DNA from: Nitrospirales bacterium
GTDB lineage: Bacteria; Nitrospirota; Nitrospiria; Nitrospirales; UBA8639
Direction of reading: 5' to 3'
Assembly: GCA_029261295.1 (NCBI GenBank)
Contig: JAJDBP010000035.1
Span: 1 to 64,000, forward strand
DNA: 64,000 bases
Shown here piece by piece: positions 10,209-13,205 of the stretch. Position numbers and translations under genes: made by a program. Position 1 is the first letter of the stretch; every line of letters begins with the position of its first letter. The notes under the pieces were generated by a model. The model was not told the origin of the DNA. It saw only the letters and a program-made list of their open reading frames with translations, and ran no database searches.

Positions 10209-10243
10209 TAGGTTCGCTGGCCAATGGATGGACAGCGAACCTA
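10209..10243 (+). other. Perfect 11-bp inverted repeat (hairpin)
   Basis: TAGGTTCGCTG at 10209-10219 pairs with CAGCGAACCTA at 10233-10243 around a 13-base loop. It sits 17 bases after the lipoprotein stop codon and before the folB fusion. No T-tract follows, so it is not a classical intrinsic terminator. It may stabilise the mRNA end, act with Rho, or bind a protein. Confidence 0.6.
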
Positions 10244-10356: not shown

Positions 10357-11286
10357 ATGCCCTCCTCAATCATTATCAGAGAAATTCAACTCCAGGCTCT
10401 CTGTGGCGTTACCGAAATTGAACGCTCTCAACCCCAGCCCATTTTAGTCGATCTGTCCGTCCGATGCGCCAATGAAACCGCATTTCAAAGCGACGAGCTA
10501 TCCGACACTCTAGATTATGGAGCGATGACAGATTGCATACGAGACATTGGCGAACGCCAACAATATTGTCTCCTCGAAAAACTCGCTGAAGAACTTTGCC
10601 AAGGCCTATTCCAACACTTTCCTCTGACTCAGTTAAATATTTGGGTTAGAAAAATTCGTGCTCCCATTAAAAACTTTTCGGGATCAGTTGGAATTCGTTT
10701 GAGTCGATCACGACTAGATTTCCTCCAGGCCCGACATGATCATCCTTCTCGCTTTCTGGTGGCCCAACTTCCTCGTTTGCCCCGAGGAAAAGCTTTAGAT
10801 GTAGCCACCGGGCGTGGCCGTCATGCGCGTTTTCTAGCTACCAATGGCTTTGAGGTTCATGGGATTGACCGCAATCAAGAGGCCCTCGATTTTGTTCACG
10901 CTCAGGCCGCTGAGATCGGGGGACTTCCTATTACCACTGAATGTATAGATTTAGAGACCAATGATCTGAGCCCCCCAGATCTGGGAACAGAATCCTACCA
11001 TGTCATTATGATATTCTTTTACCTACATCGCCCCCTTTTCCCTCAATTCATCAAAGCCGTGAAACCAGGGGGGGTCATCTTGTGCGAAACATTTCTTCTT
11101 GAAAACCATCTTCAACGAAATCATCCCCGTCGGAAAGAATTTTGCCTGGAATCCAATGAATTACTAAGCCTTCTTCCTGGTTTTCAAATTCTCCACTATG
11201 ATGAAGCCGATCACCAGCAAGGATCCTCTCAATCAGAACGAGCTTTCACAGCTCGTATCTTAGCCCGCAAACCCTCATCTCTATAA
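10357..11286 (+). CDS. folB: Dihydroneopterin aldolase fused to a class I SAM-dependent methyltransferase
   Basis: The 309-residue protein from ATG 10357 has two domains. Residues 1 to about 118 match FolB, which converts dihydroneopterin to hydroxymethyl-dihydropterin in folate synthesis. Seen are LQALCGVTEIER with the conserved Glu, TLDYGAMTD, LLEKLAEEL, WVRKIRAPI with the conserved Lys, and the usual end SVGIRLSRSR. Residues about 130-309 are a TehB/UbiG-like methyltransferase with motif I ALDVATGRGRHARFLA, acidic VHGID, and KPGGVILCETFL. There is no stop or frame change between the parts. In-frame codons extend back to 10228, but they match nothing in FolB. The methyltransferase substrate is unknown. 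Confidence 0.85.
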   Translation: MPSSIIIREIQLQALCGVTEIERSQPQPILVDLSVRCANETAFQSDELSDTLDYGAMTDCIRDIGERQQYCLLEKLAEELCQGLFQHFPLTQLNIWVRKIRAPIKNFSGSVGIRLSRSRLDFLQARHDHPSRFLVAQLPRLPRGKALDVATGRGRHARFLATNGFEVHGIDRNQEALDFVHAQAAEIGGLPITTECIDLETNDLSPPDLGTESYHVIMIFFYLHRPLFPQFIKAVKPGGVILCETFLLENHLQRNHPRRKEFCLESNELLSLLPGFQILHYDEADHQQGSSQSERAFTARILARKPSSL

Positions 11287-11293
11287 ATTATTT

Positions 11294-12139
11294 ATGAACC
11301 GGATTGACCTTCATACCCATACTTCATTTTCGGATGGAAGCCACTCTCCAACTGCTTTGATTACCCTGGCCACTCAACAAGGCATTGATGTGCTAGCCAT
11401 CACCGATCATGACACCACAGAAGGGTTACCTGAAGCTCTGGAAGCCACCAAAGACCTTTCACTTGAATTAATTCCTGCTATTGAATTGAGCTCCCAATTC
11501 CAAAATCGTGAAATGCATATCTTGGGCTATTTCATCAATCTGAGCGATTCTCAATTTCAAACCAGGCTAAAAACTCTACGTTCCACACGAATCGATCGTA
11601 TTGTCTCTATACTGGAACGTTTGCATTCCCTTGGAATCGACATTTCGCTGGAAGACGTCCAAAAGGCATCAGAAACTGGCACAATCGGGCGTCCTCATAT
11701 TGCGCAAGTCTTGATTGCCAGAAATTTTGTAAAGAATATAAAAGAAGCCTTTGAAAAATTTCTCGGTTCACGTGGAAAAGCCTACGTTCAACGACCCGTT
11801 CCTGAAGCCCAGGAAATTATGGAATGGATTACTGATGCAGGGGGCATCCCAATACTGGCGCACCCTTATTGGGAAGGATTTAATAAAGAAGACAGCGCTA
11901 AGGCTTGTCAGACATTAGTCGACCAAGGGCTACAAGGTCTCGAGGTATTTTATGGCACTTTTTCAGCTCGCCACATCTCTTTTAACTTGGGACTCGCACG
12001 CCGTTTCGATTTACTGATGACCGGTGGCAGTGATTTTCATGGGACATTGAAACCCGATATTGCCCTAGGAAAAGGACGAGGTTCCTTACATGTTCCACCA
12101 AAAGTTGTAGAAAAATTACGGGCGGCGGCGGGGTATTGA
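11294..12139 (+). CDS. PHP-domain phosphoesterase (RNase AM/YciV-like)
   Basis: The protein has 281 residues and PHP-family metal motifs: RIDLHTHTSFSDG at the N-terminus, ITDHDTTEG, PAIELSS, ILGYF, LAHPYW, and SDFHG near the C-terminus. These supply the His/Asp/Glu ligands for a trinuclear metal site. The length and order match the TrpH/YciV group, whose characterised members are 5'-3' exonucleases acting on short RNA or on 3',5'-nucleotide bisphosphates. The start lies only 7 bases after the folB-methyltransferase fusion, so the two are probably co-transcribed. Confidence 0.88.
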   Translation: MNRIDLHTHTSFSDGSHSPTALITLATQQGIDVLAITDHDTTEGLPEALEATKDLSLELIPAIELSSQFQNREMHILGYFINLSDSQFQTRLKTLRSTRIDRIVSILERLHSLGIDISLEDVQKASETGTIGRPHIAQVLIARNFVKNIKEAFEKFLGSRGKAYVQRPVPEAQEIMEWITDAGGIPILAHPYWEGFNKEDSAKACQTLVDQGLQGLEVFYGTFSARHISFNLGLARRFDLLMTGGSDFHGTLKPDIALGKGRGSLHVPPKVVEKLRAAAGY

Positions 12140-12191: not shown

Positions 12192-13205
12192 TCAATTATC
12201 TGGTGCTTCCACAATATGATTTTCAAATCGTGTGCACCCCTCTGCAAGAAGGCGATTAGTCAACATTTCTCCCGGCCATTCAATAGGTAAATCCGCAGTA
12301 AAAACCCATACATCCGGAGAAGTCCAAATCGGCCCATGTTCCTCGGGAAGTTCAGGGTCGAATAAATCAGTCCATACTGGCATATACACTCCATTTCCGC
12401 ATTGGGTATGGAGGTGAACGACCGTTCGACTGCGGACGGGTCCCTCTAAATCATGCCAGACCGCGGCAGTTTCATCTGCTAATCGATGAAGACGGACGGC
12501 ATTTTGAGCATCAAATAATGCGTAAGCGGCATAGTTTGGCGCCTCAAGCATTTGGGGGGCTTTGGCCACTTCCGGACACTGAGCCACAAGGCCATCCATA
12601 ATGGCCTGGCAATCAGTGTCTGACAAAGATTCAGGTAATGTCGTATCGGTCACCCCAAGAATTTCAAAAAACAAGAAAGCCGTTGCTTCTACGGGAGGAT
12701 GCAGTCTGGCGGCCACTGCATGTCGACGCTGTCCTTCGGCCAGGTTAGAAATGTGTTCATGAACTTTTTCTAAATTCAAATAGTCCAACGTGGTATCAGT
12801 CAATAAACGAGGCTCAACGGTGATAACCGCACCTTTAGGCATATGCAAATGCCGACGAAGCAAGTCAGCCGTTTCTATTGGATCAATTTTTAATTTTAAG
12901 GGATATTCTAAATTCGCTTGAAGTGGCAATTCAAAAGAGGCCAGAACGGCATACGTTTCTGCATCTTCTTGTTCTGCATCCATCACACAACAACTGGCTG
13001 CTTCAGCTAATAAATCAAATAACCACTCCGCCATATTCTCATCTAAGGCAGCCAGCACAGTCAGAACTTCATGCTCACGATCCTGGTCCAATAAAGCTTG
13101 CAGCACTTCAATGGCTAAACTGGGGTCACCATGTTCATGTCGACGGGCATTAATGAGATGAATAAGATCACGCGTGAGAGGATCAGGTCGGTACCAACTG
13201 GGCAT
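12192..13205 (-). CDS. Acidic cytoplasmic protein of unknown function
   Basis: The protein has 337 residues and no signal peptide or membrane segment. The first 100 residues look like helical repeats (LAIEVLQALLDQDREHEVLTVLAAL, AEWLFDLLAEAASC). The C-terminal half has VRSRTVVHLHTQCGNGVYMPVW and YAAYALFDAQNAVRLHRLAD, which suggests an alpha/beta core. It is rich in Asp/Glu, with isolated cysteines but no CxxC pair. I do not recognise a family. AAGGTAG sits 11 bases before ATG 13205. It is convergent with the PHP gene and on the same strand as the YjbQ gene behind it. Confidence 0.7.
   Translation of the reverse strand: MPSWYRPDPLTRDLIHLINARRHEHGDPSLAIEVLQALLDQDREHEVLTVLAALDENMAEWLFDLLAEAASCCVMDAEQEDAETYAVLASFELPLQANLEYPLKLKIDPIETADLLRRHLHMPKGAVITVEPRLLTDTTLDYLNLEKVHEHISNLAEGQRRHAVAARLHPPVEATAFLFFEILGVTDTTLPESLSDTDCQAIMDGLVAQCPEVAKAPQMLEAPNYAAYALFDAQNAVRLHRLADETAAVWHDLEGPVRSRTVVHLHTQCGNGVYMPVWTDLFDPELPEEHGPIWTSPDVWVFTADLPIEWPGEMLTNRLLAEGCTRFENHIVEAPDN

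Follow-up and report, generated by a model that had tools for sequence, protein, structure and literature searches.

Nearly all members of the order Nitrospirales encode a protein in which a dihydroneopterin aldolase (FolB) is joined to a class I SAM-dependent methyltransferase, and this fusion is a real, long maintained trait of the order. The first-pass annotation had called such a covalent FolB-methyltransferase a non-standard architecture, and it is indeed absent from the FolB architectures in the literature that we found. FolB is known to be fused with FolK and FolP, according to the accessible portions of PMC4224340. In these FolB-FolK and FolB-FolK-FolP polypeptides (e.g., structure 2cg8), as in the protein described here, FolB occupies the N-terminus of a multi-enzyme chain; their other partners, however, are consecutive enzymes of the folate pathway, whereas the present partner is a methyltransferase without a known place in that pathway. 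Our literature search yielded no published account of a FolB-methyltransferase fusion, and the accessible portions of PMC4224340, PMC5041015 and PMC4921024 do not mention one. As far as these paper searches show, the domain architecture is new. Whereas the FolB fusions otherwise met join successive folate enzymes, this one has fixed a methyltransferase partner across an order of environmentally important nitrifiers. It provides a clean marker character for the Nitrospirales as well as a lead to the function of the TehB/Slr1183-like group of methyltransferases, for which structures exist.

The fused gene and its junction

In the window (i.e., the whole 64,000-nucleotide stretch of DNA analysed here), the fused gene extends from 10357 to 11286 on the + strand as an uninterrupted open frame of 309 codons plus a stop. 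Its FolB domain covers residues 5-115 (10369 to 10701, + strand) and matches PF02152 with 90 bits (Pfam cut-off 31.8) and TIGR00525 folB with 73.5 bits (NCBIfam cut-off 72.15), which places it within the FolB family. It is followed by a linker, approximately residues 119-132 (10711 to 10752, + strand), and by a methyltransferase domain that starts around residues 125-133 and spans about residues 125-307 (10753 to 11283, + strand), as delimited by profile and structure matches. Within this domain, residues 147-239 match PF13649 (Methyltransf_25; 35 bits, Pfam cut-off 27) and residues 143-283 match PF03848 (TehB; 36 bits, Pfam cut-off 20.4). The domain displays a motif I reading LDVATGRGRH, the acidic residue D171 and a C-terminal motif, ETFLLENH...HPRRKEFCL..NELL. 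These matches over both halves bear out the first-pass reading of a complete FolB and a complete SAM-methyltransferase with motif I in one frame. No FolK or FolP model from Pfam or NCBIfam matched the fused protein at E 0.1, which sets it apart from fusions of the FolB-FolK type. An in-frame ATG at 10228 offers an alternative start upstream. The true start is likely 10357, since FolB homology begins at residue 5 counted from there and since the congeneric loci L003 and L005 carry an in-frame stop two codons before the ATG equivalent to 10228.

An assembly or sequencing artefact, or the read-through of two genes, might produce such a frame, and the first-pass annotation had asked that the junction be checked for sequencing errors. 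None was found. Of 80 fused loci taken from separate named genome records, 79 can be aligned across both domains in one piece without a stop, and in the one exception (L100) the sole stop is terminal. Stops flagged in the congener matches are terminal in all three that were read, namely L100 and the unbroken proteins of 303 aa encoded at L003 and L005. Among the loci from named records the junction differs between members in both length and sequence and is always in frame. These stop-free alignments, together with the full-length matches found across the order (see below), refute an artefact, to which we assign a negligible probability. One order member, G220, was considered as a case of separate FolB and methyltransferase genes. 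Each piece sits at the end of a contig, and the same junction region is found on both; the split is therefore an assembly break and lends no weight to an artefactual fusion.

Distribution, origin and selection

A search for the same fusion in other genomes, as had been proposed, revealed full-length fused matches (E 1e-50 or better) in 220 of 235 Nitrospirales genomes, and in 150 of the 153 that are of good quality (completeness of 90% or more, contamination of 5% or less). With 220 of 235 genomes fused, the contrary case that the first-pass annotation had named, relatives in which a stop at the junction separates two genes, does not hold within the order. The 15 genomes without a full-length match comprise G220 with its assembly break, G399 (92% complete), twelve others that are 64-89% complete, and G290. 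The latter, an order member that is 99% complete in about 20 contigs, contains neither a FolB nor a methyltransferase-domain match, unlike nearly all of the order. FolB itself was matched in 222 of the 235 genomes, nearly each of which has one copy only. Among the FolB matches listed for the order (at least 150 by hand count), 147 lie in open frames of at least 304 aa and three in short frames: G378:C39 (166 aa), G429:C196 (205 aa) and G476:C506 (148 aa). The first of these, at G378:C39:6750-7076, is a second, free-standing FolB beside a fused copy in the same order member. The pattern scan of named genome records, from which the 80 fused loci were drawn, returned titles that almost all read Nitrospira, Nitrospirales, Nitrospirae or Nitrospirota; the odd names of L133 (Nitrospinota) and L135 (Nitrosospira) are taken to be labels. 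It is from these titles that the order receives its name here.

No fused form was detected outside the Nitrospirales in a phylum sample of 395 genomes, 143 of which are order members by hand count and about 252 of which lie outside the order. The best match outside the order, among the matches listed, reached 1.3e-44 and covered the methyltransferase half only. Phyla beyond Nitrospirota were covered solely through the pattern scan of named records. As far as sampled, the fusion is thus restricted to the Nitrospirales. The two genes were searched for in 44 genomes hand-picked, rather than drawn at random, from the phylum sample; 41 of them lie outside the order. Both genes are present in 21 of these 41, the methyltransferase alone in 10, FolB alone in 9 and neither in 1, so that the methyltransferase occurs without a detectable FolB in 10 of the 31 hand-picked genomes that possess it. 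Given the 21 genomes with both and the 9 with FolB alone in this set, the separate genes are not mutually exclusive. They are not close in any of these 21 genomes: in 19 they lie on separate contigs, and the other two carry both on a single contig, at distances of about 53 kb (G001) and about 216 kb (G183).

A tree was built from 21 fused methyltransferases and 23 free-standing ones; one branch, supported at 96/99, separates the fused sequences from the rest. To judge from this tree, the fusion arose once. Of the 29 free-standing loci L033-L061, 23 entered the tree and the alignment; the others (L040, L041, L045, L047, L050 and L051) were left out for lack of a clean frame from the simple gene caller. 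The FolB tree, which includes 29 of the 30 loci L062-L091 (L081, the broken fusion, was omitted), agrees with a single fused group apart from the free-standing L090, which has a very long branch and is placed within the fused sequences. Selection was assessed on the three pairs least saturated at silent sites; the remaining pairs, in which these sites approach or exceed saturation, were not used. The dN/dS values of FolB and the methyltransferase are respectively 0.094 and 0.163 for L101/L103, 0.132 and 0.153 for L103/L106, and 0.101 and 0.119 for L092/L093. This range of about 0.09-0.16 across both domains indicates that purifying selection acts on both halves of the protein. Values for the linker, which counts 14 codons only, are unstable and reveal no consistent constraint.

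The FolB and methyltransferase halves

The FolB half is the sole FolB of this genome. Residues E22, Y54, E74 and K99 are invariant throughout an alignment of 21 members and another of 47, and share columns with the solved active site of dihydroneopterin aldolase (DHNA), the catalytic residues of which in the S. aureus enzyme we take to be E22, Y54, E74 and K100. For the Y. pestis enzyme, Tyr53Phe and Lys98Ala variants appear in PDB titles, consistent with both positions being studied as catalytic. The predicted model superimposes on DHNA 1sql with a Z of 18.1 and an rmsd of 1.4 over 118 residues, i.e., it adopts the DHNA fold. The half therefore resembles FolB enzymes (PF02152, TIGR00525) over the whole domain, in its catalytic columns and in its fold. 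Among the matches, these enzymes are single-domain or, as in 2cg8, fused to another folate enzyme, while here the partner is a methyltransferase. Both folK (C2:241844) and folP (C35:152057) are present in the same genome. Being its only FolB and having invariant catalytic residues, the fused FolB very probably makes folate. From these residues, its single copy and the presence of folK and folP, we infer that it would act as the aldolase that splits 7,8-dihydroneopterin into 6-hydroxymethyl-7,8-dihydropterin and glycolaldehyde for folate synthesis.

The C-terminal half exhibits the features of class I SAM-methyltransferases, that is, a glycine-rich motif I, an acidic residue after strand 2 and the corresponding fold. 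Across 47 aligned members, the SAM-site residues L147, D148, G154, R155 and D171 are invariant and A150 and G152 nearly so. Residues E244, T245, F246, H256, P257, F262, C263, E268 and L269 of the C-terminal motif are likewise invariant. Most of the aligned free-standing relatives keep this motif as YETFLIDxH...PRRxEFC...NELL; families f32 and f34 are looser. An AlphaFold model of the fused protein has a mean pLDDT of 87.5 and a pTM of 0.64, from which each predicted domain appears sound while their mutual placement is uncertain. In structure searches, which also included Foldseek, the top match of this half was Slr1183 (3mer; Z 23.2, rmsd 1.8, 167 residues, 29% identity), and the TehB structures 2xvm and 3m70 scored a Z of about 22.5. 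On the basis of the predicted model, the half is nearest to Slr1183 and TehB. Slr1183-type methyltransferases (3mer, 2kw5) are its closest solved relatives, although Slr1183 is free-standing; with the tellurite methyltransferase TehB (PF03848; 2xvm, 3m70) it has the fold and the Pfam match in common and differs by being fused to FolB. Identity with the TehB equivalogs was rejected, the NCBIfam scores being 35.6 against 219.5 bits (TIGR00477), 34.8 against 218 bits (NF008405) and 39.2 against 303 bits (NF008992). No second copy of the methyltransferase domain was detected in this genome.

Possible functions and genomic context

We consider it fairly probable that an ancestral free-standing small-molecule methyltransferase was tethered to FolB to give a bifunctional protein of the Nitrospirales. 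The C-terminal half would then belong to the Slr1183/TehB-like group as a functional SAM-dependent methyltransferase. Free-standing in its ancestors, it would have been attached to the C-terminal end of FolB in a single event while retaining the small-molecule substrate that it had before. Since DHNA enzymes assemble as tetramers or octamers, four or eight methyltransferase domains would be arranged around a FolB core, fixing the two activities at a 1:1 ratio. A substrate independent of FolB is suggested by the conservation of the C-terminal motif and by the co-occurrence pattern in the hand-picked set. Yet a fusion that occurs order-wide points to a functional link more than to chance tethering, and such a link would favour a metabolite shared by the two halves, which counts against this explanation. 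The hand-picked genomes that have both genes (21) or FolB alone (9), the uncertain mutual placement of the domains and the position of L090 in the FolB tree also weigh against it.

A shared metabolite is what would be expected if the C-terminal half methylated the substrate or product of FolB, the fusion channelling the intermediate; the first-pass annotation had suggested that the methyltransferase might act on a pterin. Dihydroneopterin, 6-hydroxymethyldihydropterin or the released glycolaldehyde moiety would be its target, and either a methylated pterin would be made or folate flux diverted; if true, nitrite oxidisers would possess a new pterin. Besides the order-wide permanence of the fusion, it is favoured by the fact that fusions often unite enzymes with a common intermediate (PMC4921024, in its accessible part, treats fusions around unstable metabolites), by the known cases in which FolB is joined to the enzymes of the next steps (PMC4224340, likewise in its accessible part) and by the presence of heterocyclic-compound methyltransferases among the structural neighbours (7ndm, Z 18.6). 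However, the same C-terminal motif is found in free-standing relatives, 10 of whose 31 hand-picked genomes lack a detectable FolB; the two genes are distant in all 21 genomes that have both; no folate gene was recognised by eye beside the free-standing methyltransferases; and neither folK nor folP is on the contig of the fusion. We thus found no specific support for methylation of a pterin, which is possible but rather unlikely. The methyltransferase half could alternatively serve as a regulator or scaffold that binds SAM and, with no methyl transfer, tunes FolB and hence folate output to the methyl-donor pool. The invariant SAM-site residues fit this role, and one polypeptide would link the folate and SAM pools, but the conserved C-terminal motif lies outside the SAM site and is also present in relatives unattached to FolB, which points to catalysis and makes mere regulation improbable. 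The tethering of an older small-molecule methyltransferase to FolB is accordingly the reading we prefer.

The gene directly downstream of the fusion (11294 to 12139, + strand), separated from it by 7 bases, encodes a PHP-domain phosphoesterase of 281 aa (PF02811, 50 bits). The simple gene caller recognised the fusion in 77 of 81 sources, and in 71 of these 77 the PHP gene comes next on the same strand; in the four that the caller missed (L116, L127, L130 and L154), tblastn shows the fused gene to be present. The PHP protein does not reach the cut-offs of the NCBIfam models for 3',5'-nucleoside bisphosphate phosphatase and RNase RNM. As a speculative extension that we regard as improbable, the fusion and the PHP phosphoesterase might constitute a compact pterin module of the Nitrospirales, in which PHP would remove the last phosphate to yield dihydroneopterin, FolB would cleave it and the methyltransferase would produce a methylated pterin that is characteristic of these organisms and as yet undescribed. 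A PHP gene was also considered as a context shared with free-standing FolB or methyltransferase genes and rejected: among loci L032-L091 the only instance, L032, belongs to the order genome G220, and no PHP match was found beside those genes outside the order.

The free-standing methyltransferases have diverse neighbours, here assigned by eye. In family f21 (L033, L035, L036, L037 and L038) the gene follows or overlaps what is presumably a prmA-like gene; in family f7 (L043, L048, L049, L053 and L055) it adjoins a gene that we take to encode a ChaN-like lipoprotein, in some cases together with a presumed CrcB-like gene; and families f6 and f8 have presumably ferredoxin-like neighbours. No common pathway could be discerned among the neighbours of these four families. 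Upstream of the fusion, on the opposite strand, some loci (L119, L158, L171 and others) carry genes that by eye are moaC-, moaA-, accD- and folC-like. On the - strand of the window, a 337-aa protein encoded at 12192 to 13205 gave no Pfam or NCBIfam match; relatives occur near the fused gene in 62 of the 80 loci, and we regard it as a conserved unknown of the Nitrospirales.
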